DNA of 64,000 nt from an uncultured Chloroflexota bacterium (GTDB lineage: Bacteria > Chloroflexota > Dehalococcoidia > Lucifugimonadales > UBA826): contig CAJWPE010000001.1 of assembly GCA_913045625.1 (NCBI GenBank), forward strand, positions 84,068 to 148,067. The letters are read 5' to 3'. Made by a program: the position numbers and the translations under genes. The first letter of the stretch is position 1. Every line of letters starts with the position of its first letter. Shown here piece by piece: positions 2,690 to 34,926 of this stretch. The notes under the pieces were generated by a model that had not been told where the DNA came from, searched no databases, and saw only the letters and a list, made by a program, of their open reading frames with translations.

Positions 2690-3086
2690 ATTTGATTGTT
2701 ACAGTTGTTTCACCAGAAATGGCTATTTCACCGAGGTGATTTTTAACTGTGACAGTACAGTTGATTAGTTTACCTTCCGTAACCTCTTCAGTTTTTTTGA
2801 TTGTTCCTTCGGTGATGATTGTGTCATTGGGGAAAATTGGTAATTTAAATTTTATTTTCATATTACCGTTTCTAGACCAACTTTCTCCAAAATTTTTATA
2901 CATTAATTCAGAAATTGAAGAAGCAATCATCATACCGTGAGCAATATTATTTTTAAACTGAGATTTAATCCCAAATTCTTTATTTATATGGATAGGATTA
3001 AAATCACCTGACGCTTCTGCATATTTTTTAATTAAATCAAATGAGATGATTTTTTGTATAGCTATAAGTTCATTTTTTTCAGGCAT
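2679..3086 (-). CDS. MaoC-like dehydratase (HadB-like)
   Basis: YAEASGDFNPIHINKEF...NIAHGMMIAS hot-dog/MaoC hydratase motif. Confidence 0.82.
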   Translation of the reverse strand: MPEKNELIAIQKIISFDLIKKYAEASGDFNPIHINKEFGIKSQFKNNIAHGMMIASSISELMYKNFGESWSRNGNMKIKFKLPIFPNDTIITEGTIKKTEEVTEGKLINCTVTVKNHLGEIAISGETTVTIKYGE

Positions 3087-3474
3087 TATTTTTCTCTACT
3101 GGGATCATGATAGTACTTTTTCCGGTCATGATTAGTTTTTGGTCTGTAGAAATTGTTTCTAGTTTGATGCTTAGAAATCTCCACTCACCCCTTACGTTAT
3201 TTGAAATAATGGTAGCTAAACATTCGATAAGTTCAGATTTTTCTATGGATGAAAAATAATTAAATTCTTGGCTTACATGTACTGTTCCACCTGGAATCTT
3301 TAAATCATTAAGAACACCTCTGATACTGAGAGCAGAAATGGCCATGGGAGGAACACTATTTTTATAGTTAGAGTTGTCTTTTACAGATTCAGTATATTTG
3401 TTAATGAAATCTTCTGAAAATTCATATTGATTTTTAGAAATTATACTTTCAGGCTGAAGTTGGGAATAGTCCAA
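3079..3474 (-). CDS. MaoC N-terminal/FAS1-dehydratase-like hot-dog protein (HadA-like)
   Basis: Length and hot-dog-like pattern (VPPMAISAL...VSQEFNYFSSIEKSELIECLATI); overlaps the downstream MaoC gene by 8 nt. Confidence 0.68.
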   Translation of the reverse strand: MDYSQLQPESIISKNQYEFSEDFINKYTESVKDNSNYKNSVPPMAISALSIRGVLNDLKIPGGTVHVSQEFNYFSSIEKSELIECLATIISNNVRGEWRFLSIKLETISTDQKLIMTGKSTIMIPVEKNNA

Positions 3475-3498
3475 TTTAATTTTCTCGAATATATTATT

Positions 3499-3543
3499 GT
3501 ATATTGATTATAGTATGTAGAAACATACCTTCAATCAATATAC
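3499..3543. repeat. Long interrupted palindrome in the divergent hadA-like/serS intergenic region
   Basis: GTATATTGATT (3499-3509) perfectly complementary to AATCAATATAC (3533-3543), with a nested GTATGT/ACATAC stem and AGAA loop (3513-3528). Confidence 0.8.
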
Positions 3544-16425: not shown

Positions 16426-17250
16426 ATGTCGTATGATTTTATTAAATACGAACCAAGTGATGGGATTGCAAGAGTAACTTTAAATCGCCCAGAAAAATTA
16501 AATGCTTTAAGTTTGCAGTTAAGGGCTGAATTGATAGATTGTTTGCATAAAGCTGATGACGATCCTGAGATTAGAGTAATCACTTTAAGGGGTGCAGGTA
16601 GGGCATTTTGTGCAGGATATGATGTTACACCGCCACAGACTGACGAAGAACGAGAAGCCCGAAGCGCTAGTAGAGAAAATATTAGATCTGATATGCATGG
16701 TCTTCAAAAAACCGCAAGAATGATGACCTCTATATTTGATTTAAGTAAACCTGTAATTGCTGGAATTCATGGTCACGTAATTGCGGGAGGTACTGATCTA
16801 GCATTACATTGTGATTTAATTATTGCCGCTGATGACGCTAACATAGGCTTTCCTCCAGTAAGAGCAATGGGAACACCTCCAACTCATATGTGGACATACA
16901 TGGTTGGGCCTCAATTAGCTAAATGGTTTATGTTGACTGGTGAAACAGTTTCAGGAAAACAGGCTGCTGATATGGGACTAGTATTAAAATCTGTACCTGC
17001 CTCTGATTTAGATGATGCGGTTGAAACTCTTGCAACTCAAATTGCAAAAATTCCATGGGAAATGTTAGCTGCTAATAAGAGTATTGTTAACAAAGCTTTG
17101 GATTTAATGGGTAGAAATATGATGCAAGTTATTGCTGCAGAAACTGACGCAGTTTCCCACCAATCTCCTATAGTGAAAGAGTTTAATAGAATTTCTAATG
17201 AACAAGGCTTAAAAGCAGCATTAGAAATGAGAGATGCTCCATTTAGATAA
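16426..17250 (+). CDS. Enoyl-CoA hydratase/isomerase family (crotonase) protein
   Basis: VTLNRPEKLNALS, GAGRAFCAGYDV, HVIAGGTDLALHCDLIIAADDANIGFPPV. Confidence 0.92.
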   Translation: MSYDFIKYEPSDGIARVTLNRPEKLNALSLQLRAELIDCLHKADDDPEIRVITLRGAGRAFCAGYDVTPPQTDEEREARSASRENIRSDMHGLQKTARMMTSIFDLSKPVIAGIHGHVIAGGTDLALHCDLIIAADDANIGFPPVRAMGTPPTHMWTYMVGPQLAKWFMLTGETVSGKQAADMGLVLKSVPASDLDDAVETLATQIAKIPWEMLAANKSIVNKALDLMGRNMMQVIAAETDAVSHQSPIVKEFNRISNEQGLKAALEMRDAPFR

Positions 17251-18703
17251 ATCAGTGCAAACATTTAGATACTCAAAATTTAATTTAGAAGAAAATTCAT
17301 TAAATAATTGGCAAGAATTATTTAATGAATTTTCTGAAACTATTTTGGAATCTGGCGATGTAAATGAAGCTTTGACTGGGGTTTTTCAAAATGGCTTAAA
17401 TGCTGACGGAGATCAGCCTGTTCTGGGATTAACAGACATGTTTAATGCCATTAAGGAAAATTTAGAAATCCTAAAAAATTTATTGACATCGGAATTGAAT
17501 TCTATTTCCGAAAAATCACTAGAAGAAAAGCTAGATCAGCTCAATTTTTCAGAAGATACACTCAAATTTTTGTCTGATGCACTAAAAGAATCAATATCTA
17601 AGGATCATATTACTTCTAGCGATATTTCAGAAGATTCTATTGAAAGAATAAAGAGTTATTTAGATAAATTTGTATCAAACCGTAATTTGGAGGATCAACT
17701 CCAAAAAGCTATTGAAGAGAAAAATCTGAACGATATAGACCTTGATTTGGTTGAAGAAATATTGGGTATCGAATTTAGCAAATCTATCGAACAGATTATT
17801 AAAATGGTTAATGGTTTAGAGGAAGCTGGATTTCTACAAAAAAATCGTGACAGATATAAATTAGGAATTCGTGCAGTGAATCAAATAGCTGAAAATGCTA
17901 TGAAAGAAATATTTAAGCAAATGAAAAAAGCTCATTTGGGTGCTCACGATACTTTTGTAAAAGGTGAATGGGGTGACTTAACTGGTCAGACTATTTCATA
18001 TGAAGATACTAATTCTTTTGAAATTAATTTACAGAAATCATTATTTAATGCTGTTTTGAGAAACGGTGATTCAATTCCGCTGAAGTTAAAAAAAGATGAT
18101 TTTGAAGTTGATGAACATGAACATCTAACCCAATCTGCTACTGTAGTAATGCTTGATCAAAGTAGGTCTATGGGGATGTTTGGAACATATACATCAGCTA
18201 AAAAGGTTGCTTTAGCTTTATATTGGTTGATCAAAACTAAATTTCCTAAAGATAAAATTCATGTTGTTGGATTTTCTGATTACGGAATGATTATAGAAGG
18301 TAAAGATTTACCAGAATCTACATGGAATCATTGGGTGGCAGGAACAAACATGCATCATGGATTTACTTTAGCTAGGCAAATTTTATCTAAAGAAAAAGTA
18401 GCTAATAAACAAATTTTGATGATTACAGATGGTGAGCCGACAGTTCACATGGAAAATGGTAGAGCATTTTTTGCATATCCCCCATCGCCCAGCACTTTGG
18501 ACGAGACGTTGAAAGAAGTAAAACGTTGCACTAGAGAAGGAATATTAATAAATACATTTATGTTAGAAATGAATCATTTCTTGATTGAATTTCTTACTCA
18601 AATGACAAAAATTAATAAAGGTAGAACCTTCTATACTGAACCTGATCATTTAGGAAGATATGTGTTAGTTGATTTTTTGAAAACTCGAGCTCGGAAAGTT
18701 TAA
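17234..18703 (+). CDS. VWA-domain protein
   Basis: C-terminal VWA with MIDAS DxSxS (VVMLDQSRSMG), G-T-N-M-H and ITDGEPT; long helical N-terminal region. Start codon uncertain (overlaps the previous gene by 17 nt). Confidence 0.82.
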   Translation: MLHLDKSVQTFRYSKFNLEENSLNNWQELFNEFSETILESGDVNEALTGVFQNGLNADGDQPVLGLTDMFNAIKENLEILKNLLTSELNSISEKSLEEKLDQLNFSEDTLKFLSDALKESISKDHITSSDISEDSIERIKSYLDKFVSNRNLEDQLQKAIEEKNLNDIDLDLVEEILGIEFSKSIEQIIKMVNGLEEAGFLQKNRDRYKLGIRAVNQIAENAMKEIFKQMKKAHLGAHDTFVKGEWGDLTGQTISYEDTNSFEINLQKSLFNAVLRNGDSIPLKLKKDDFEVDEHEHLTQSATVVMLDQSRSMGMFGTYTSAKKVALALYWLIKTKFPKDKIHVVGFSDYGMIIEGKDLPESTWNHWVAGTNMHHGFTLARQILSKEKVANKQILMITDGEPTVHMENGRAFFAYPPSPSTLDETLKEVKRCTREGILINTFMLEMNHFLIEFLTQMTKINKGRTFYTEPDHLGRYVLVDFLKTRARKV

Positions 18704-18738
18704 TCAGAAAATTTACTTATGGGTTTTAATAGTGTTTC

Positions 18739-18781
18739 ACGGTAATAATTGTTATAGAGCTATTGGCATTGCCGTTTTTTT
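18739..18781 (+). terminator. Intrinsic terminator after the VWA gene
   Basis: ACGGTAAT (18739-18746) pairs with ATTGCCGT (18768-18775, one G-T wobble), followed by a T run to 18781. Confidence 0.65.
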
Positions 18782-18809
18782 GATTCTTGGCTAGAATATC
18801 GCCTACAAT
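18780..18809 (+). promoter_or_regulatory. Candidate promoter for the DUF1800-DUF1501-NHL operon
   Basis: TTGATT (18780-18785), 18-nt spacer, TACAAT (18804-18809), upstream of GGAGG and the ATG at 18854. Confidence 0.4.
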
Positions 18810-18853
18810 AGTATGAATATAAATGCACATATCGATGTATTTTGGAGGTATTA

Positions 18854-20257
18854 ATGAGCTCAAACGATTTGAAACTTAAAGCACATCTTTTAAGGAGAGC
18901 AGGATTTGGAGCTTCTCCTGAAGAATTAGATCAAGTAGCTGACAAAAGTTATGAAGATTTATTAGAGGATTTATTGCATCCTAATAGATTTGAAGAAATC
19001 GATATGGATTATATAAAAAGATATAACCCTGAGCTTAGGTATCCTGATACACATCCTTTACATGCAGGATTTTGGATGTGGAGGATGATCAATACTAAAA
19101 AACCTTTAGAAGAAAAGATTGCTCTTTTTTGGCATCATATTTTTGCTACGGCTTGGTATAAGGGTGAACATACTCCATCTCAAATAGAGCAAATAGAAAC
19201 ATTTAGACGAAATGGGTTATCTAACATTAAGCAGATCTTAAATGATTTAGCCAAAGATCCAGCCATGAATTATTGGTTAGATAATTGTGAAAATCATTCA
19301 GATCAGCCTAATGAAAATTGGGGACGTGAGCTTTTAGAATTATTCTCAATGGGTGTTGGAAATTATTCAGAAGAAGATATAAAGCAGGCATCACGAGCGT
19401 TTACTGGGTGGACTTTTGAACAACCGTTGCCTCTTTATCCTTATGGTAACTATGAAACGAAATTTGTTTTTGATGAATCAGACCATGATTTTGGAGAAAA
19501 AACATTTTTAGGACGAACTGGTGCTTTTAACGGAGAAGACATTATAGACATTATTTGTGAAGAAAGAGCTACAGCTTTATTTATTTGTAGACATTTATAT
19601 AATTTCTTTGTCGAAGATGAGCCACAAATCCCAGCTTGGAACATTGAACCTCCACGAAATCCTGAAGCTATTGATCAGATGATTGATGTATTAATGAGTA
19701 ATGACGGAGAAATGGTTCCGTTATTGCGATTTGTATTTAACTCTGACTTTTTTAAGGATTCTATGTATAAAAAAGTCAAAAACCCATGTGAGTTAATTGC
19801 GGGTACATTAAAACTGACTGGCACTTACGGAGTTATACCTAAACAAGGTGAAGAGGTTGGTAAATTATATGGAATAGGCTCAGTAATGGGTCAAGCATTA
19901 ATGAATCCTCCCACTGTTGAAGGATGGCATACAGGGCATGAATGGATTGACGGTGGAACTTTGAATGAAAGGGTCAATTTTGCTGTAAATCAATTTAATG
20001 ACTTATCTGTTCCCGGTTTATCCGATATTATTTCCAGATTAGGAGATAAAGTGAAATCTTCAGATTTGCTAGATAAATGTTTGGAGATTATTGGTCCATT
20101 TGAATTAGGTAAACAAGCATATGATGCATTGAATGAATATGCAGACGCTGTTGGAGATTTAGATCTAAGCAGTGACGTATTAAGAGAAGAGAATATGGAG
20201 AACATTGCTCGAATGGTTCAATTGATACTTTCAACTCGGGAATATCAATTCGCATAG
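18854..20257 (+). CDS. DUF1800-family protein (copy 1)
   Basis: LLRRAGFGASPEELD, FWHHIFAT, NENWGRELLELFSMGVGNYSEEDIKQASRAFTGWT, HDFGEKTFLG. The ATG at 18854 with GGAGG SD is preferred over the track start at 18842. Confidence 0.9.
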   Translation: MSSNDLKLKAHLLRRAGFGASPEELDQVADKSYEDLLEDLLHPNRFEEIDMDYIKRYNPELRYPDTHPLHAGFWMWRMINTKKPLEEKIALFWHHIFATAWYKGEHTPSQIEQIETFRRNGLSNIKQILNDLAKDPAMNYWLDNCENHSDQPNENWGRELLELFSMGVGNYSEEDIKQASRAFTGWTFEQPLPLYPYGNYETKFVFDESDHDFGEKTFLGRTGAFNGEDIIDIICEERATALFICRHLYNFFVEDEPQIPAWNIEPPRNPEAIDQMIDVLMSNDGEMVPLLRFVFNSDFFKDSMYKKVKNPCELIAGTLKLTGTYGVIPKQGEEVGKLYGIGSVMGQALMNPPTVEGWHTGHEWIDGGTLNERVNFAVNQFNDLSVPGLSDIISRLGDKVKSSDLLDKCLEIIGPFELGKQAYDALNEYADAVGDLDLSSDVLREENMENIARMVQLILSTREYQFA

Positions 20258-20275
20258 CATAAAAGGGGAATAGAA

Positions 20276-21418
20276 ATGACAACAGTAACTAAAAAAGATC
20301 CAGTATTTGTAGTTGTTCAATTATCAGGTGGTAATGATTTTATGAACACTTTGGTTCCTTATAGCAATCATAGGTATTATGACAACAGAAAGTTTTTAAA
20401 TATTGCCCCTGAGGATGTATTACCTCTAGACAACACTCTTGGATGGCATCCTGAAATGGCTCCATTCAAAGAATTGTATGACAGAGGAATGGTTGCAGTT
20501 GTCCAAGGAATTGGATATCCAGATTCGAACAGAAGTCATTTTAGGGGCATGGATATTATGCATACTTGTACTCCTCATGAAATTTCAACTGTTGGTTGGT
20601 TGGGTTCTGTACTTGAGCAATTGGATCCGGGAAAAGAAAATCCACTTACTGGTGTTAATTTTGGTGTTGGACTTCCTAGAGCAATGTCAAAAGCTGGGAT
20701 TCCAGTTACTAGTGTTTCTAATTTGGATGAGTATGGATTGATGAGTGGTTTGGCTGCTGAAGATCAACGAGACAAAGCTTTGAAAATATTTAAAGATATG
20801 TATGCACAAGCTATAGGCTCAGGTCCTGTGATGGATTACTTGTCACGAACAGGAAGTGACGTAATCAGTGGTGCAGATTTGATAAAAGTAGCTCCTGAAA
20901 AATATGAATCAACTGTTGAATATGGGGATAGCCAAATAGCAAAATCATTGAGAGATGTAGCTAGAGTTCATACAGCAGATTTAGGTACTCGAGTTTTTTA
21001 TACTCAACAAGGTGGATATGATACTCATGCTAACCAATTGCCTACTCAGCCTGGATTATTTAGAGACCTTTCAAGGGCTGTAAATGACTTTTTTGCTGAT
21101 TTAGAAGAACATGATGCAGATGATAATGTTGTAATGTTAATTTTTTCAGAGTTTGGTCGACGAATTTCTGATAACGGTTCTGGAACAGATCATGGTTCTG
21201 GTGGAGGAGCATATTTAGTTGGAAAGCCTGTTGTAGGTGGATTATATTCTGAATATCCTTCTCTTGAACCAGATAAATGGGCAAAAGGTGAAGACCTAGA
21301 GCATTCTATCGATTTCAGGGGAATTTACGGAACAGTCTTAGAGCAATGGTTAGGATTAGAAGCCTCTCCAATCGTATATGGAAATTTCGAACAAATTCAT
21401 CCTTTTAAAAATAGTTAA
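20276..21418 (+). CDS. DUF1501-family protein
   Basis: VVVQLSGGNDFMNTLVPY, GIGYPDSNRSHFRGMDIMHT, FSEFGRRISDNGSGTDHGSGGGAYLVG; directly after DUF1800. Confidence 0.9.
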   Translation: MTTVTKKDPVFVVVQLSGGNDFMNTLVPYSNHRYYDNRKFLNIAPEDVLPLDNTLGWHPEMAPFKELYDRGMVAVVQGIGYPDSNRSHFRGMDIMHTCTPHEISTVGWLGSVLEQLDPGKENPLTGVNFGVGLPRAMSKAGIPVTSVSNLDEYGLMSGLAAEDQRDKALKIFKDMYAQAIGSGPVMDYLSRTGSDVISGADLIKVAPEKYESTVEYGDSQIAKSLRDVARVHTADLGTRVFYTQQGGYDTHANQLPTQPGLFRDLSRAVNDFFADLEEHDADDNVVMLIFSEFGRRISDNGSGTDHGSGGGAYLVGKPVVGGLYSEYPSLEPDKWAKGEDLEHSIDFRGIYGTVLEQWLGLEASPIVYGNFEQIHPFKNS

Positions 21419-21428
21419 GGAGTTTTTT

Positions 21429-22436
21429 ATGACTACCACTTCAATTCCATATGATTTATTAAGATCAGGGTTTCCTTATTACATGACACTTGGACAACGT
21501 AGAGTAACTACTGCTCCTGTGGATATTGGTTTTGGTAAAGAAAACATTTATGTTCTTACTAAAGGTGGATTAGGTACTCAAATAAGAGTTTTAAATTGGG
21601 AAGATGAAAACTTAGGTGTTCGTGGTGGTACAGATTTATTTCAATGGCCTGCTGGATTACTAGTGGATGAAGAAGAAAATTTATATGTTTCTGATGAAGC
21701 CAAAGATTGTTTAGTAATTATGAACAAAGATGGTGAGCATATTGAAACTTGGGGAGAATCAGGGTCTGAAGAAGGTCAATTGAATCGACCTTCTAGTTTG
21801 GCATTTGATTTAGAGGGGAATATTTTTATTTCTGACACCATGAACCATAGGGTTCAGAAATTTACTAGAGATGGGAAATTTTTACTATCCATCGGAGAAC
21901 ATGGTATTGGCGATGGGCAATTTGATATGCCATGGGGTATTAGTGTGGATCAACTTGGAAATTTGTACGTGGCTGATTGGAGAAATGATCGAATACAAAA
22001 ATTTGACCAAGAAGGTAATTTCATAATTTCTTTAGGAAGTTCAGGATCTGAAAAAGGTCAATTTAAAAGACCAACGTCTGTCACTGTGGACAATCACGGA
22101 GATATTTATGTCAGTGATGCCGAGAATGATCGAGTGCAGTTATTTAATAAAGATTTGAAATATATTCAAAGCTTCCACGGTAATGCTACTTTGTCACCAT
22201 CTGGACAACAATATATTTTGGCTAATGCCGTTACATTGAGATTGAGATCAATGGCTGATTTTGAAAAAACTCAGAGATTAGATGCTCCGATGATGGTAAA
22301 AGTAGATGATGAGTTCAGGCTTTTCATTTTAGATTATGGAAATCATCGAATACAGATTTATAAAAAAGATGCTGTTGAGTTATCTAAGGAGCAAATTGCA
22401 CCTGAAATGCGAAATCCCATTTTATTTACTACTTAA
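21429..22436 (+). CDS. NHL-repeat beta-propeller protein (copy 1)
   Basis: Repeated NHL units (NRPSSLAFDLEGNIFISDTMNHRVQKFTRDG, MPWGISVDQLGNLYVADWRNDRIQKFDQEG). The ATG at 21429 follows AAGGAG; the track start at 21378 lies inside DUF1501. Confidence 0.9.
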   Translation: MTTTSIPYDLLRSGFPYYMTLGQRRVTTAPVDIGFGKENIYVLTKGGLGTQIRVLNWEDENLGVRGGTDLFQWPAGLLVDEEENLYVSDEAKDCLVIMNKDGEHIETWGESGSEEGQLNRPSSLAFDLEGNIFISDTMNHRVQKFTRDGKFLLSIGEHGIGDGQFDMPWGISVDQLGNLYVADWRNDRIQKFDQEGNFIISLGSSGSEKGQFKRPTSVTVDNHGDIYVSDAENDRVQLFNKDLKYIQSFHGNATLSPSGQQYILANAVTLRLRSMADFEKTQRLDAPMMVKVDDEFRLFILDYGNHRIQIYKKDAVELSKEQIAPEMRNPILFTT

Positions 22437-22789
22437 TTAAAAGTGGATTTGTCTATTCTTTTAGATCGAATAAATTCAGCATAATCTAATACAGAGTTGA
22501 GTTCGTCATCTGTAAGATCGTTCAATTTTTCTAGCCTGTGTAAGTTATAACTGTTTTTAGAGTCAATATAGTTCGCTAGTACAGCTAATTTGGCATAGGG
22601 TAATTCAAGAAGAGAAGAGATTTTGTGTAAGGTTTCAACGGTGGGTTGAATGTTGCCACTTTCTAAATGTGTGGCGTAACTGTTGCTCATTCCTAGAAGT
22701 CCAGATAGTTTTCTTTGAGATAATCCTAGATCTTTACGTGCTGAAGAAACTAAGTTTGCTAAATCAGAATAAGGTTTATTTTCATTCAT
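22433..22789 (-). CDS. XRE-family helix-turn-helix regulator
   Basis: LVSSARKDLGLSQRKLSGLLGMSNSYATHLESGNIQPTVETLHKISSLLELP. Confidence 0.9.
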   Translation of the reverse strand: MNENKPYSDLANLVSSARKDLGLSQRKLSGLLGMSNSYATHLESGNIQPTVETLHKISSLLELPYAKLAVLANYIDSKNSYNLHRLEKLNDLTDDELNSVLDYAEFIRSKRIDKSTFN

Positions 22790-26517: not shown

Positions 26518-27153
26518 ATGTACATTATCGATATTTCGACCTTAAAAAAAGAAGGTGAATTTGGATCTAAAGAATGGGGTGAGGCCTGCGCTGCTGCAGC
26601 TGTAAAAATTCTTAAGGCCGCTGACTTGCCTGTTGATTTTGAATGGGCCTTCACTGAACGCTATACCTATCCCCCAGATCGATTAATGAAAAATGGGCGC
26701 ACACAATGTGGTTACTACATCATGGTTAAGAATGGTGAAATAACTGGTGGTGACGGAGAACCAGAGGCAGCGCTTGCGATTCCTGGCTTTCACATACGTG
26801 CACGCTGGGCTGCATTGTGTAACCAGTCTGGTGCTTTTTATGGTGCTGAAGGGAAATTAAAGCGCGCTGAAGGTGAAGCTTTAATGCGTGAGGCAATTGA
26901 GAAATATCTTGGGAATGAAGACCCATACGGTGAAATGCAGCCTTCAGAATTGTATTTTCCTGAAACTGTACGTGGCCCATTGATGGCAGGGTCAGAGGAA
27001 GGTAATGGACTTCACAATATCGCTGCGTCTATGCAGATACCATCTCCAGAGTTTGCTGATTTTCCAGTGACTGAGATGCTGGTTCCAATTTTTAATGAGA
27101 TGAGTGAAGATCAAAAGAAGTCATTTATCAACCTGCTTGGCATCGATATCTAA
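26518..27153 (+). CDS. Conserved-looking protein of unknown function
   Basis: 211-aa ORF with GGAGG SD and higher GC than its neighbours; no family recognised. Confidence 0.7.
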   Translation: MYIIDISTLKKEGEFGSKEWGEACAAAAVKILKAADLPVDFEWAFTERYTYPPDRLMKNGRTQCGYYIMVKNGEITGGDGEPEAALAIPGFHIRARWAALCNQSGAFYGAEGKLKRAEGEALMREAIEKYLGNEDPYGEMQPSELYFPETVRGPLMAGSEEGNGLHNIAASMQIPSPEFADFPVTEMLVPIFNEMSEDQKKSFINLLGIDI

Positions 27154-27900: not shown

Positions 27901-29319
27901 ATGATGGTAGTCTCTGATAAACAAGAATATGAATTGAGAGCTCACCTACTAAGAAGAGCGGGGTTTGGTTGTAGTAAGAAAGAACTACAACACTATATGC
28001 GAAATTCATATGAAGATACCGTCGAATATCTTCTCAAACCCAATTTTAATGACTGGATGGGTGATCATCTAGTAAGAAGGTTTGACCCAGAAGCTTCAGG
28101 AATGATTAATGCCCCAGGAGCATCTCGCAACTGGTTATACAGGATGATCAGCACTGCTAATCCGTTAACAGAAAAAATTCCGTTGCTATGGCATAGCATT
28201 TTCGCTACAGGAGTTCCAAAAGTAATTAATGGAAGGGTCTTGTTTGATCAGATAAATATGCTCCGAAAATATGGGACAGGTAGACTTGATGATCTTCTGC
28301 TACAACTCTCAAAAGATCCTGCAATGATTATTTGGTTAGATAATCAAGAAAACCATAAAGATGCAATGAATGAAAATTGGGGGCGTGAGCTGCTTGAACT
28401 ATTTTCAATGGGAGTGGGAAATTACACCGAAGAAGATGTAAAGGAGTGTGCTAGAGCATTTACAGGATGGACTATAGGAAATACTGAATACATGATGGTC
28501 AGGGCTAAAAGAGATTCAGACTGGCCTTATGGAAGAATCGCCTACCATTTTCAATATCGAGAGGATGATCATGACACATCAGAAAGAACTTTTTTGGGGC
28601 AAACAGGAAATTTTAACGGTGAGGACATAATCCGAATAATATGTGAACAGGAAAGTACTGCTAAATTCATTTCAAGACACTTATATCATTTTTTTGTAGC
28701 AGATGAATTGCCTGTTCCTTCATGGGGAACTGTTGAACCAAGAGATCCTGAAGCCATTGATCAACTTGTAAAAGCATATTTTGATTCAAATCACAACATA
28801 ACTGATATGTTGAGAATCCTGTTTAACTCAGACTTTTTTAAATCAAGGGATATACGATATCAAAAAGTAAAAGGCCCGGCAGAATTCGCATCAACAGTTA
28901 TAAAGCTTAGTGGTCAATTTGAAATACCTGACAGAGAAATGATTCCTAAATATCAACAGATCGTATGGATGGGTCAAGAGTTAAGCAATCCATCAAGTGT
29001 AGAAGGATGGCATGAAGGTAAAGAATGGGTTGATACTGGAACTTTAGTAGAAAGAATTAACTTTGCTTCTGAGCAACTCGGAGATTATCAAAAACCTGGA
29101 ATCCAGAAAATAGTTGACACATTAATGCTGGAAAATACTGATTTGATTTCTGAAGAGGAAATAATTGAACAATGCCTTGAGCATCTTGGTTATCTAGAGA
29201 TTTCAAATGAAACGCGAGATGTTTTAGTCGAATATGCGAAAGAAATTGATAATCCAGTTAAGAAAATTACTGGGATAATTCGCCTAATAACAACCTCCAA
29301 GGAATTTCAATTGGCCTAA
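27901..29319 (+). CDS. DUF1800-family protein (copy 2)
   Basis: LLRRAGFGCSKKEL, NENWGRELLELFSMGVGNYTEEDVKECARAFTGWT, VEGWHEGKEWVDTGTLVERINFA; clear paralog of 18854-20257. Confidence 0.9.
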   Translation: MMVVSDKQEYELRAHLLRRAGFGCSKKELQHYMRNSYEDTVEYLLKPNFNDWMGDHLVRRFDPEASGMINAPGASRNWLYRMISTANPLTEKIPLLWHSIFATGVPKVINGRVLFDQINMLRKYGTGRLDDLLLQLSKDPAMIIWLDNQENHKDAMNENWGRELLELFSMGVGNYTEEDVKECARAFTGWTIGNTEYMMVRAKRDSDWPYGRIAYHFQYREDDHDTSERTFLGQTGNFNGEDIIRIICEQESTAKFISRHLYHFFVADELPVPSWGTVEPRDPEAIDQLVKAYFDSNHNITDMLRILFNSDFFKSRDIRYQKVKGPAEFASTVIKLSGQFEIPDREMIPKYQQIVWMGQELSNPSSVEGWHEGKEWVDTGTLVERINFASEQLGDYQKPGIQKIVDTLMLENTDLISEEEIIEQCLEHLGYLEISNETRDVLVEYAKEIDNPVKKITGIIRLITTSKEFQLA

Positions 29320-29357
29320 TCGACGGATTTAATAATGACTCTATTAAGTGAATATAA

Positions 29358-30353
29358 ATGATCGAATACATGCTCACTTTAGGAATTGTAGCCATGGAAG
29401 GCAGAGGGTTTGAATATCCAACCGATAGTGTAATGGCTCCTAACGGTCGCATATATGTCCCAAATAAGTCTAGAAACTTTGGAGAGCGAGGAGTTAGAGT
29501 AACTGCACTCAGTTTAGAAAGTGAATTTTATGGAACATTTGCAACTTACGGTACTTCTGAAGGAAAACTACAATCGCCTTCATCTATTGCTGCTACAGAA
29601 GATGGAAAATTACTGGTCTGTGATGATTATACTCACACAATAAACTTATTTGACTTAGATGGTTCATTTTTGACTAGCTGGGGAAGTCATGGAGTAGGAA
29701 TAAAAGAGATTAATGGCCCTTCAGGAATAGCTATAGATCGAGACAATAACGTTTACATATCAGACACCAGAAATCATCGAATTCAGAAATTTAATATTGA
29801 AGGTGTTCATCTAGACACTTTTGGTAAACAAGGTCAATCTAGGGGCGAGTTCGAGCTACCATGGGGAATATCAATGACACCAAACAATACTTTATGCATT
29901 GCAGACTGGGGCAATAACCGTATACAAGAATTAACCTTAGAAGGTGAAGTTTTATCGGTCATAGACAATGAATCCAACCCCAGTTATGAACTGAAATATC
30001 CTTCAAGTGCTGTTATAGATGATGATAGGACAATTTATATAGCAGACTGGGGGAATGAAAGAGTCAAAATTATTAATCATAAGGGAGTTATGGTTCAAAA
30101 TTTGAGAGGAGAGGCTACTGTTTCTAAGTGGGCAGGAGAATTTTTGAGCAATAATGCTGAAGAAAATGATGCTCGTCTTTCTGCAAACATGGAAATAGAC
30201 TTAGATTTTCTTGATGATAATGATCCTCATAGTGAATCGGCTCATATTGAAAAGTACTTCTGGTCTCCAGTTTCAATTAAACTAGATGACGAAAATCGAG
30301 TCTATATTACTGAAGCCAATCGCCACCGCATACAGGTATACCAACAAGCATAG
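29358..30353 (+). CDS. NHL-repeat beta-propeller protein (copy 2)
   Basis: GPSGIAIDRDNNVYISDTRNHRIQKFNIEG, LPWGISMTPNNTLCIADWGNNRIQELTLEG; paralog of 21429-22436. Confidence 0.9.
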   Translation: MIEYMLTLGIVAMEGRGFEYPTDSVMAPNGRIYVPNKSRNFGERGVRVTALSLESEFYGTFATYGTSEGKLQSPSSIAATEDGKLLVCDDYTHTINLFDLDGSFLTSWGSHGVGIKEINGPSGIAIDRDNNVYISDTRNHRIQKFNIEGVHLDTFGKQGQSRGEFELPWGISMTPNNTLCIADWGNNRIQELTLEGEVLSVIDNESNPSYELKYPSSAVIDDDRTIYIADWGNERVKIINHKGVMVQNLRGEATVSKWAGEFLSNNAEENDARLSANMEIDLDFLDDNDPHSESAHIEKYFWSPVSIKLDDENRVYITEANRHRIQVYQQA

Positions 30354-30548
30354 TTTTGTTTCGGAATACTATTCAATCGAATAAAGAATATTTATCCGAT
30401 TTATTGAAAAAGTCTTCTAATTATTTGATCTAAATTGATTCTTTTTCAATTCTTCTAATCTTGAATCATAAATTTCTTGAGGACTATTTATAATTTAATC
30501 ATTTTTTCTGATTATAAAGTATCTCTTTGACTGCAGATCTTATTTCTT

Positions 30549-30797
30549 CTAATTCATCATTTTTTTAGATCGAGCGCTTATAGGTATACCCTTATTAATT
30601 TTGTTAGACCACCCCATACCGATGTGCATAGGAAATGAAGTCATAAACACAGTAACGAGAAACCACCCTCCTTCGTCATACCAGTCCGATAACCAAGGCA
30701 TTCCTGTCTCATGTAAGAATATAAACACCCCACAGAGTGCACATAATATTCCATGGAGTACTAAATATTTATTTAATATTTTGTACTGTTTTTTCAT
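30549..30797 (-). CDS. Small membrane protein, function unknown
   Basis: 82-aa ORF with two hydrophobic segments; start overlaps the 3' end of the upstream enolase-superfamily gene by 29 nt. Confidence 0.5.
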   Translation of the reverse strand: MKKQYKILNKYLVLHGILCALCGVFIFLHETGMPWLSDWYDEGGWFLVTVFMTSFPMHIGMGWSNKINKGIPISARSKKMMN

Positions 30798-31896
30798 TTA
30801 AATAATTCCAATCTAATTCGTAACCTATTCCGGGTAATTTGGTGGCTTTTATAGAACCTTCATTATTTACTGTTATGTCATCTTTTAATCCAAATTGATG
30901 TGCTTCTGTCGGCATCCAATATTCGTAAAAATCACAATTTTTTACAGAATATATGACATGTAAGTTGGCTATGTTCAGTATTGAATTCCCTGCCGTTCCG
31001 ATTTCGCAGTTATATCCAAAAGCTTCAGCTGCTGAGCATAATTTTTTTAGACCAGTTATGCCTAACTTTGATGCTGAACCTCTTATGAGTCTATTTGACT
31101 TAGTTCTAATGGCATTGGCCCCCCAAAAAAATTGGTTGTCTGATTGGTCACTCATGCATAGGGGTGTTTTTAATCTTTTGGATAATTCTGATATTGCATC
31201 TATGTCATTGTGAGAAACAGGATCTTCATACCAGTAGAAATTATTATCATCTAAGGCTTGTCCTATGTCATATGCTTTTCTATAGTCATATCCACAATTT
31301 GGGTCAAACATTAGTTTTATGTCTGGACCAACACTTTTCCTAACTTCATTAACCATTTCTATAGTATTTTTAGTATCCATTACTCCAGGGTGAATTTTGT
31401 AAGCTTTAAATCCGCTATTTATGATTTCTGCCGCTTCTTTTACATAACCTTTGTAATCAATATGTCTTGGTGGGTATGTTGCGTATGCATCAATGGAATC
31501 ACGTTGTGATCCCAGTAGCTCATATATAGGCATATTGGCTGCTTTTCCTGCTATGTCCCACAAAGCTACATCTACTGCTGCCCAAGCTCCTATTTTCAAA
31601 CCCTTTCGTGAAGATAGTATTTGTACCCTACTCCATAGAAATTCTCTTTTTGATACATCCATTCCTAGTAATTCAGGTTTTAAAGTTTTGATTATGGAGC
31701 TGTAAAGACCAGATCCTCCGTTACGAAATTCTCCTATAAAACAATTACCTTCTATTCCGTTATCTGTAATTATTCTTAGAACTCCCTGATCAACTTTTCC
31801 AGCAAATCTCCCTAGATCTGAATCTAATCCAGTATCAGGTGTTTCACGTTCAATTACATCGATACTAACTTCAGCTATTTTCATTTTTTTAAGCAT
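30769..31896 (-). CDS. Mandelate racemase/muconate lactonizing enzyme (enolase superfamily)
   Basis: AAVDVALWDIAGKAANMPIYELLG, FKAYKIHPG, LMFDPNCGYDYRKA, FYWYEDP. Confidence 0.9.
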   Translation of the reverse strand: MLKKMKIAEVSIDVIERETPDTGLDSDLGRFAGKVDQGVLRIITDNGIEGNCFIGEFRNGGSGLYSSIIKTLKPELLGMDVSKREFLWSRVQILSSRKGLKIGAWAAVDVALWDIAGKAANMPIYELLGSQRDSIDAYATYPPRHIDYKGYVKEAAEIINSGFKAYKIHPGVMDTKNTIEMVNEVRKSVGPDIKLMFDPNCGYDYRKAYDIGQALDDNNFYWYEDPVSHNDIDAISELSKRLKTPLCMSDQSDNQFFWGANAIRTKSNRLIRGSASKLGITGLKKLCSAAEAFGYNCEIGTAGNSILNIANLHVIYSVKNCDFYEYWMPTEAHQFGLKDDITVNNEGSIKATKLPGIGYELDWNYLNEKTVQNIK

Positions 31897-32022
31897 CCTT
31901 TCATAATGGATTTGATTATAAGGATTTTTTGATAATCATGATAATTTTTGTTTATAGTGTGTTTTTATATAGTTGCGTTTAATGTTTTTAATGTTGCTTA
32001 AATAGTATTTTATATAATTATT

Positions 32023-32604
32023 TTAGCTTTTAGTGTTGCTTATATTTTGAGTTGAAGGTTGCTCGAAATAAGTGTTAGATGGCTTCCAAATTTGCTCCAT
32101 TATTGAATTCATGTCCTCGTCTTCGTGGTCAAAAGTGATTAAATTTGAGTCTCTGTTAAATATAATTTTGTATTTTTCAGTTTGGGCACATTTGATTGCT
32201 AATCTGGGAAGTTCCATGGATACAGAATCCCAGTCTGTTTTCATGTAGCTCAATCTCCACATCCATTTAGCTTCTCTTCCAGTAGGTAGTTTATTGAAAC
32301 TAACAGGGGGTGCGTCCAAAATTTTCATGATTCTTGTTGAATCTTGCCAAGGGATTTCGTATAAGCTGAGTTTGTGAAGTCTGAAAGCCTTATCTTGCTC
32401 TATTATGTCTCTGGGGATCTGTTTAAATTCTTTTACCCAATTGGCAACAGTGCTTATTGTTACAACAGATCCACCGCTTCTTAACGTTCTGCCCCAATGA
32501 CTTTCAATGCTTTTGTGTATGTTGTCTGTATGCGCGGAGTTTCGCGCATACAATTCGTAAGCGTGTAGCTTTTGTCCGTATGCGATATGTCCTCTTTTTG
32601 GCAT
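32023..32604 (-). CDS. Protein of unknown function with putative N-terminal HTH
   Basis: 193-aa ORF; AYGQKLHAYELYARNSAHTDNIHKSIESHWG...TISTVANWVKEF looks like an HTH resembling terminase-small-subunit-type domains. Confidence 0.6.
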   Translation of the reverse strand: MPKRGHIAYGQKLHAYELYARNSAHTDNIHKSIESHWGRTLRSGGSVVTISTVANWVKEFKQIPRDIIEQDKAFRLHKLSLYEIPWQDSTRIMKILDAPPVSFNKLPTGREAKWMWRLSYMKTDWDSVSMELPRLAIKCAQTEKYKIIFNRDSNLITFDHEDEDMNSIMEQIWKPSNTYFEQPSTQNISNTKS

Positions 32605-32673
32605 GCGTATTACTCCAAATTAATAAAGAAGAATAGCACAAAACAGAACATATGTACTAATATTTAATTGGCT

Positions 32674-33753
32674 TTATTCCTTTAATTTATTGACCATTTT
32701 CATGTCTAATTCAACTCCAAGACCTGGTCCGTTTGGAACTTCTAATAATCCGTTTTTAATCTTTAAAGGTTCTTTTAAAATCGGATATTCATCTCTTATA
32801 GAAATGTTCTCAATATTGTATTCCTGTGCATAAGGAACAATCGATGATGAGGCTACAAAATGCGCATGAGCTACCGTGCTAATTGTTGGTTGAGTATTGT
32901 GACATGTAATTGGTATGCCAAATGACTCAGCTAAATTTGCTATCTTTATAAATGTAGTAAAACCTGGAGTTTTAACAATATCTGGTTGAATGATGTCTAC
33001 TTTACCCTTGATTATTAAATCTCTGTATTCGTAAAGACTGTATATCATTTCACCTGAAGCTATAGGAATAGTTAAAGCATCTGCTACTTCTGATAAGCCT
33101 TGCAAGTCATAGTGAGGTCTTGGTTCTTCAAAATGAAAGACGTTTAGTTCTTCTAGTTGCTTTCCAATTTCTATGCTTTTATGTACAGAATAAGCACCAT
33201 TTACATCAACCAATATGTCTACATTGTCTCCAACAGCTTTCCGTACTTCTGTTACTGTTTTTATTGTTTGATCTGCAGGGTCATCAATTTTGCCTGGTAC
33301 AGCGCTATGTAATTTGTATGCACTGTAACCTTGTTCGACTAACGATACGGCACGTTTTGCTTCTTCTAACGGCGTCATATCTCGTTTCATTGAACTAGCA
33401 TAAACTGGTACCTGGTCTTTGATTTTTCCTCCTAGTAAAGCATGTATCGGTAAATTTAATGCTTTGCCTTTAATGTCCCAAAGTGCGATATCAAGACCTG
33501 CAATTCCTATCCAGATTGCACCCCCGATTTCAAGAGCGTTACCTGCTTTTGCCATATCTTTAAATCGATTTTCTGTATCTAAAGGGTTTTTCCCAATGAG
33601 AGATGGAGCTAAAAGTGTTTCAATTACTGTTTTTGTAACACTTGGTTGTCGTCTAAAACATTCTCCAATTCCAGTTATTCCTTCATCTGTATGAACTAAG
33701 ACAAAAGGGAAAGATTTATCTAATACTAAATACTCTATAGATGTAATTTTCAT
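32674..33753 (-). CDS. Mandelate racemase/muconate lactonizing enzyme (enolase superfamily), second gene
   Basis: AGLDIALWDIKGKALNLPIHALLGGK, YSAYKLHSA, ILVDVNGAYSVHKS, FHFEEPRPHYD. The ATG at 33753 with GGAGA SD is preferred over the track start at 33795. Confidence 0.9.
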   Translation of the reverse strand: MKITSIEYLVLDKSFPFVLVHTDEGITGIGECFRRQPSVTKTVIETLLAPSLIGKNPLDTENRFKDMAKAGNALEIGGAIWIGIAGLDIALWDIKGKALNLPIHALLGGKIKDQVPVYASSMKRDMTPLEEAKRAVSLVEQGYSAYKLHSAVPGKIDDPADQTIKTVTEVRKAVGDNVDILVDVNGAYSVHKSIEIGKQLEELNVFHFEEPRPHYDLQGLSEVADALTIPIASGEMIYSLYEYRDLIIKGKVDIIQPDIVKTPGFTTFIKIANLAESFGIPITCHNTQPTISTVAHAHFVASSSIVPYAQEYNIENISIRDEYPILKEPLKIKNGLLEVPNGPGLGVELDMKMVNKLKE

Positions 33754-33855
33754 TGAATTTTCTCCAAATTGATTATTTGAACAGTTGGATTTCATTTGTT
33801 GTGAGAGTTATCATATGACTTCCCTAAAATTCTTGGAATCAAGAGAATAAATTTT

Positions 33856-34926
33856 ATGTTAGATAGATTATCTTCTTTAGAAGAAAAATACGAAGAACTG
33901 GATAAGTTATTAGCTGATCCAGAAGTTGTGATGGATTACACCAAAGTTCAGCAATATGCCAAAGAGCAGGCAGCTATGCGTGAGGTTGTTGAATTAGCTA
34001 GAGCATATAGATCTGTAACTGAAGATTTACGAGAAGTAACAGATATGGTTCACAATGAAAATGATCCAGATTTGCTGGCTATGGCTAAAGAAGAACAAGA
34101 GGCTTTACAGACAAAACACGATCAGGTTGAAGCAGACTTGAAACTAGCTCTAGTTCCTTCTGATCCTAATGATGATAAGAATGTAATTATTGAAATACGG
34201 GCTGGGACAGGCGGTGAAGAAGCTGGCCTTTTTGCATCTAATTTGTTTCGAATGTATTCGAGGTTAGCCCAACGTCTTGAATGGAAATTAGAAGTAATTG
34301 ATACGAAACAAACAGGTATTGGCGGTATTAAAGAAGTAACTTTTCAAGTAAATGGTGACCAAGCCTACAGCAAATTAAAACATGAAAGTGGTGTTCATCG
34401 GGTTCAGCGTGTACCGGCTACTGAGTCTAGTGGCCGAATTCATACATCTGCAGCAACAGTTGCTGTTTTACCCGAAGCGGAGGAAGTGGATGTAGAGCTT
34501 GCTTCCGAGGATCTTCAGATAGATGTTTATCATGCTAGTGGTCATGGGGGTCAAAATGTTCAGAAAGTTGCTACTGCAATTCGAATTACTCATATTCCTT
34601 CAGGTTTGGTGACAACTTGTCAGGATGAAAGATCTCAGCATAAAAATAAAGAGAAAGCTTTGGCAGTTCTTAGATCTAGATTATTGGCACAAGAGATAGC
34701 AAAACAACAACAAGAAATTACAGATTCCAGAAGATCAATGGTTGGTTCTGGAGATAGGTCGGAAAGAGTTAGAACCTATAACTTTCCTCAAGGCAGGATT
34801 ACGGATCATAGAATTAATTTGACTAGCTACAACCTAGAACAAGTACTTGATGGCGATTTACTGGAGTTTATTGAGGCATTGGTACAAGAAGAACAGGCCT
34901 ATAAATTAGAAAATTCAGGTTTATGA
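33856..34926 (+). CDS. prfA: Peptide chain release factor 1
   Basis: IEIRAGTGGEEAGLFA and HASGHGGQNVQKVATAIRITH (GGQ). Confidence 0.95.
   Translation: MLDRLSSLEEKYEELDKLLADPEVVMDYTKVQQYAKEQAAMREVVELARAYRSVTEDLREVTDMVHNENDPDLLAMAKEEQEALQTKHDQVEADLKLALVPSDPNDDKNVIIEIRAGTGGEEAGLFASNLFRMYSRLAQRLEWKLEVIDTKQTGIGGIKEVTFQVNGDQAYSKLKHESGVHRVQRVPATESSGRIHTSAATVAVLPEAEEVDVELASEDLQIDVYHASGHGGQNVQKVATAIRITHIPSGLVTTCQDERSQHKNKEKALAVLRSRLLAQEIAKQQQEITDSRRSMVGSGDRSERVRTYNFPQGRITDHRINLTSYNLEQVLDGDLLEFIEALVQEEQAYKLENSGL

Follow-up and report, generated by a model that had tools for sequence, protein, structure and literature searches.

A leaderless DUF1800-DUF1501-NHL gene triplet of SAR202 Chloroflexota is a conserved variant of an uncharacterised gene pair

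Results

Gene content of the locus

The window, i.e. the whole stretch of 64,000 nt that was analysed, belongs to a 1.4-Mb SAR202 (Chloroflexota) draft genome, 94.6% complete, in which five DUF1800 and four DUF1501 genes were found. Three genes predicted to code for leaderless proteins follow each other on its forward strand: a DUF1800 gene (nt 18854–20257; 467 aa; PF08811, E = 4e-92, 310 bits with a gathering cut-off of 26.1), a DUF1501 gene (nt 20276–21418; 380 aa; PF07394, E = 1e-18, 68 bits with a cut-off of 27) and an NHL propeller gene (nt 21429–22436; 335 aa; PF01436, E = 7e-31, 105 bits). Both the genes and the 18- and 10-nt gaps between them, as described in an earlier note on this DNA, are upheld by the open reading frames and the Pfam matches. 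For the DUF1800 gene, ATG 18854, preceded by a GGAGG, is the most likely start, the ORF listing giving TTG 18842; the DUF1501 gene starts at ATG 20276 and the NHL gene at ATG 21429, the latter behind an AAGGAG. The nearest public relatives of the window DUF1501 are found in SAR202 genomes (98 and 96% identity).

A second unit, overlooked by the earlier note, lies 5.5 kb downstream of the triplet (nt 27901–30353) and consists, again on the forward strand, of a DUF1800 gene (nt 27901–29319; PF08811, E = 2e-91) and an NHL gene (nt 29358–30353; 302 bits with the triplet NHL profile), without any DUF1501. It is adjoined by a 211-aa ORF (nt 26518–27153), which has no match in Pfam, NCBIfam or PADLOC and whose counterpart at locus L060 is 96% identical. 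Beside another triplet of the same genome, a divergent heliorhodopsin gene was observed (L041, nt 2758–3525; PF18761, E = 3e-96).

Upstream of the triplet, on the same strand, an ORF (nt 17234–18703; alternative start GTG 17255) matched Pfam VWA_2 with 27.8 bits, the cut-off being 27. The intact MIDAS that had been ascribed to it can be read in the sequence, with DQSRS as the DxSxS motif, the threonine of a GTN and the aspartate of a TDG. A sub-threshold match to NNH2 (NACHT N-terminal helical) was also observed in this VWA protein. On the other side, an Xre-type HTH gene (nt 22433–22789, reverse strand) is convergent with the triplet, and no evidence for its role in the regulation of the triplet was found. 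The VWA gene adjoins the triplet in 13 loci, all in the bacterial family of the window, and the HTH gene does so in 13 loci, the same or nearly so and again in this family only.

Neither the intrinsic terminator nor the candidate promoter previously proposed between the VWA and DUF1800 genes withstood the analysis. The scan of nt 18700–18850 retrieved no terminator and the folding of the region was no better than that of its shuffles (z = +0.43), while the promoter matches at nt 18769 and 18780 (9 of 12 positions) have no weight, since the region contains fewer such matches than its own shuffles (13 vs. 26). The earlier suggestion that the VWA gene may be an unrelated neighbour has thus lost the terminator as an argument for separation, but it is sustained by the restriction of the adjacency to a single family. 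Because of this restriction we reject the VWA gene as a member of the module, and consider it probably a mere neighbour of the triplet.

Linkage of the NHL gene and gene order

Linkage was evaluated in 12 genomes of the order, including all DUF1800 genes (97), the DUF1501 genes of the clade (64, one fragment excluded) and the strong NHL matches (96), which are separated from the others by a drop in score from 231 to 139 bits. An NHL gene was found in the same unit for 91 of the 97 DUF1800 and 57 of the 64 DUF1501 genes, and 92/96 NHL genes were in turn associated with a DUF1800 or a DUF1501 gene. The NHL gene, counted as part of the module in the earlier note, is therefore conserved in this neighbourhood and is a core member of the module. 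DUF1501 was linked to DUF1800 in 54/64 cases. The prevalent gene order was DUF1800-DUF1501-NHL (33 units), followed by DUF1800-NHL without DUF1501 (25 units, about 30% of the total), DUF1501-DUF1800-NHL (10 units) and DUF1800-NHL-DUF1501 (8 units). No gene fusion among the three families was detected in 545 ORFs.

The search for an additional recurrent operon partner, able to reveal a substrate, did not retrieve any candidate, the commonest neighbour family occurring in 5 of 92 clusters. The flanks of the units are occupied by varied catabolic enzymes and transporters, such as MFS transporters, luciferase-like monooxygenases, aminotransferases, amidohydrolases, SDRs and enolase-superfamily enzymes. 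At one locus (L219; G007 contig 16, nt 29937–34643) a sulfatase gene (PF00884) directly follows a complete triplet on the same strand, and contig 46 of G008 as well as contig 46 of G005 have sulfatases in the vicinity of DUF1501; one adjacent case and a few near ones are too little to claim an association of sulfatases with the triplet. A defence system was likewise discarded, as PADLOC gave only a weak propeller match, of the NHL protein to PD-T4-6 (20 bits).

Leaderless and exported types

In agreement with the earlier note, none of the three proteins shows a leader. This absence is not due to mis-called starts, because the orthologues begin at the same place. A leader was found in none of the 93 DUF1501 orthologues of a first set and, under a simple rule that asks either for a strong hydrophobic run or for RR ahead of a hydrophobic one, in none of the 245 proteins of a second set (DUF1800 0/97, NHL 0/91, DUF1501 0/57).

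That conventional DUF1501 proteins usually carry a Tat signal, as stated in the earlier note, was confirmed on a sample of 25 from Chloroflexota and plasmids, in which the same rule called a Tat leader in 21. A further one (L141, MDRREFLRKS) is Tat-like by eye, thus being the 22nd; of the others, L181 starts with MLNRRQLLG, no clear hydrophobic run being present, a lipobox-like stretch occurs in L169, and L182 has no leader. No NHL gene was present at these 25 loci, in contrast with the two leaderless loci sampled alongside them, both having one. The same contrast holds within a single order, where L183–L185 have a Tat leader and no NHL, and even within a single genome (G124), where L168 is leaderless and accompanied by NHL whereas L169 and L170 are conventional, L170 with a Tat leader. 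In several exported pairs (L146, L170, L175 and L176) the Tat leader was observed on DUF1501 and none on DUF1800, which would fit DUF1800 leaving the cell bound to DUF1501, the two being folded together before export; other exported pairs have leaders on both.

Several residues are invariant in both types, including D21, S87, H88, D249, H251, E292, D305, H306 and D346 in DUF1501 and the N-E-N..R-E..E motif in DUF1800, indicating a core that is retained despite the change in location.

Copy number and distribution

Over 60 related genomes, the presence of DUF1501 agreed with that of DUF1800 in 59 and their copy numbers were correlated (r = 0.92), with totals of 311 DUF1800 and 190 DUF1501 genes and with up to 18 and 13 copies per genome, respectively. 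Co-inheritance over 49 units (r 0.87–0.90) may reflect linkage alone. In one DUF1501 copy (L209; G004 contig 4, nt 276146–277267) one in-frame stop was observed within the profile match, which may mark either a decayed paralogue or a match extending beyond the end of the gene.

A scan of a genome collection, from which 80 loci were kept, comprised by record title 35 loci of Poribacteria, 6 of Latescibacterota, 2 of Entotheonella, 1 of a Proteobacteria bin and the remainder of Chloroflexota. In these loci and the window, NHL was called in 77 and each of the two DUF genes in 75, the uncalled genes being partly explained by contig ends and by failures of ORF calling in GC-rich DNA. Many of these records presumably derive from sponge studies. 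A viral record, of an uncultured Caudovirales phage with a DUF1800 family protein, was also observed (BFVD A0A6J5M749).

The leaderless DUF1501 proteins form a clade with 99/99 support, bar a single Vibrio row on a very long branch, flagged by the program itself as unsure. The DUF1501 proteins of triplets from other phyla are about 60–65% identical, those of Poribacteria being ≈64% identical to the window copy and thus closer to it than the paralogues of its own genome (≈50%); in the tree, the Poribacteria and Latescibacterota copies group beside those of SAR202. Taken together, the identities and the grouping suggest either an old shared orthologue or a transfer between phyla.

Predicted structures and conserved residues

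The structure model of the window DUF1501 (pLDDT 87, pTM 0.88) retrieved 171 matches at E ≤ 0.001 in a fold search of the PDB (best E 8e-8), and the 50 matches listed are sulfatases, phosphonate hydrolases and other proteins of the alkaline-phosphatase superfamily. The superposition on sulfatases is loose (TM 0.35–0.46). The sulfatase-like fold put forward in the earlier note is thereby supported as a predicted fold, and DUF1501 is predicted to adopt the sulfatase/alkaline-phosphatase fold. Seven candidate site residues (D21, S87, D249, H251, D305, H306 and D346) are invariant in every aligned DUF1501, with S87 preceding a helix (aa 88–97) in the model, and this set matches the order of acidic and His residues known for the alkaline-phosphatase superfamily. 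The formylglycine motif of S1 sulfatases (C/S-x-P/A-x-R) is absent from DUF1501, the sequence around S87 being RSHFRGM, and no match to PF00884 and no solved sequence relative in the PDB were found for this protein. Profile comparison of DUF1501 with phosphoglycerate mutases gave no match.

The helical AlphaFold2 model of DUF1800 (pLDDT 88, pTM 0.90) has no fold match in the PDB at E ≤ 0.001 (best E 0.7), and its sequence gave only marginal, chance-like PDB matches (E 0.04–0.05). The viral model library, on the other hand, returned a DUF1800 model at 4.5e-9, indicating that the fold search works and that no solved structure on hand shares this fold. DUF1800 has an invariant polar set of its own (N153, E154, N155, R158, E159 and E162).

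Solved propeller relatives of the NHL protein include TRIM71, PknD and Brat. The protein is acidic (pI ≈4.9), which disfavours an RNA-binding NHL of the Brat/TRIM71 kind. Its best propeller match in NCBIfam was ScyF (NF035926), with 177.6 bits compared with a cut-off of 350 bits.

Discussion

The leaderless, NHL-linked triplet is a well-conserved variant of the known but functionally uncharacterised DUF1800-DUF1501 pair. We place an evenly balanced confidence in our preferred reading, according to which the triplet is derived from the same stock as the exported pair, lacks its leaders, and represents a metallo-hydrolase module of the cytoplasm that has been multiplied into paralogues. This reading is favoured by the linkage to NHL in several gene orders, the correlated copy numbers and co-inheritance, the conservation between phyla, the contrast in leaders, the predicted fold of DUF1501, the residues invariant in both types and the lack of any other recurrent operon partner. 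DUF1501 would be a candidate metal-dependent hydrolase or transferase, as judged from its predicted fold and residues, with S87 as the candidate nucleophile at a helix N-terminus and D21, D249, H251, D305, H306 and D346 as candidate metal ligands. The three proteins would form a complex around DUF1501, a putative assembly that the earlier note had already suggested, with the propeller as scaffold. The intracellular substrate of DUF1501 might be a phospho-, sulfo- or phosphono-ester imported from dissolved organic matter, with DUF1800 as the putative helical partner of the enzyme and the NHL propeller as a possible docking or recognition part, and the paralogues could serve different substrates of the dissolved organic matter. 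The stronger proposal, that these modules constitute an undescribed class of cytoplasmic enzymes (a metal-dependent hydrolase of sulfatase fold, a DUF1800 partner with a fold new to the PDB, and a propeller of NHL type for docking), whose substrate-specialised copies reach 18 per genome in SAR202 and which also occur in Poribacteria, Latescibacterota and Entotheonella, is put forward more tentatively.

Against the preferred reading stand the loose superposition of DUF1501 on sulfatases, its missing formylglycine motif and the negative profile comparison with phosphoglycerate mutases. Moreover, about 30% of the units being DUF1800-NHL without DUF1501, the latter possibly does not belong to the core. 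The main rival explanation accordingly places the working core in DUF1800-NHL, which so often lacks DUF1501, and takes these two proteins for an enzyme or a ligand binder and DUF1501 for an optional accessory. This arrangement is the second commonest and is represented in the window itself by the second unit; DUF1800 outnumbers DUF1501 over the 60 genomes and has its own invariant polar residues. The putative active site of DUF1501 is, however, intact in every aligned copy, and DUF1501, linked to DUF1800 in most cases, could also serve several DUF1800-NHL pairs in trans, so that we regard a DUF1800-NHL core as a possible but rather improbable explanation. NHL proteins are often binding platforms, TRIM71, PknD and Brat being among the solved relatives, and the units lie beside varied metabolic genes; both observations would suit a non-catalytic cytoplasmic sensor or scaffold, in which the sulfatase fold binds a ligand without turnover and the propeller relays the signal. 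With nucleophile-like and ligand-like residues invariant in both types, no regulator or kinase recurring beside the units, and an acidic NHL unlike the RNA-binding ones, we consider such a sensor unlikely.

Two other explanations concern the location of the proteins and the gene upstream. Considering that conventional DUF1501 is exported by Tat (PMC5122149) and that DUF1800 proteins without a leader may in some cases leave the cell together with a Tat-bearing DUF1501, the triplet proteins might be exported without a classical leader and have the function of the exported pair; the orthologues examined showed no leader for DUF1800, DUF1501 or NHL, and neither a transporter nor a Tat gene recurs beside the units, making export very improbable. 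Even less credit can be given to the VWA protein as an activating or metal-inserting (chelatase-like) partner. It has a MIDAS, and most loci of the window's family have its gene immediately upstream in the same orientation, but no triplet of another family or phylum is accompanied by it; it is also missing at L070, and at L061 another ORF intervenes between the two. Moreover, the AAA_lid_2 ATPase, i.e. the chelatase/MoxR-type partner of VWA proteins, was not found in the 94.6%-complete draft, the same search being positive in 11 of 14 control genomes.

Returning to the cytoplasmic hydrolase module as the preferred reading, its two DUF families are widespread, operon-linked, functionally uncharacterised and rarely named: in a literature search thin on subscription journals, which may have missed an earlier description, DUF1501 appeared in 10 papers and DUF1800 in 4, two of them naming both. 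A leaderless, presumably soluble triplet makes the pair testable, as it is multiplied into many paralogues within a marine clade of which strains such as JH545 (PMC10444878) are now in culture. Paralogue expansion in SAR202 is the main theme of two papers (PMC6946804 and PMC10444878), neither of which contains the words DUF or NHL; the triplet is a multi-copy SAR202 family that is absent by these names from both.

Among known systems, the closest is the exported DUF1800-DUF1501 pair, described with a Tat motif beside bacterial chitin synthases (PMC5122149), which shares with the triplet the two Pfam families, the operon linkage and the invariant residues. It differs in having a Tat leader on DUF1501 and no NHL neighbour, whereas the triplet has no leader and nearly always an NHL gene. 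DUF1501 gene clusters have also been described in PVC bacteria, as cited in PMC4452313; they are likewise DUF1501 modules without known function, but several of their proteins have signal peptides, while those of the triplet have none. S1 sulfatases and phosphonate monoester hydrolases share the predicted fold of DUF1501 and a similar Asp/His order, although the identity is about 10% and DUF1501 has neither a PF00884 match nor the formylglycine motif. ScyF of the scytonemin clusters, finally, is the best NCBIfam propeller match of the triplet NHL, far below the cut-off, and is named as a PEP-CTERM protein, whereas the NHL protein of the triplet is leaderless and accompanied by DUF1800 and DUF1501.
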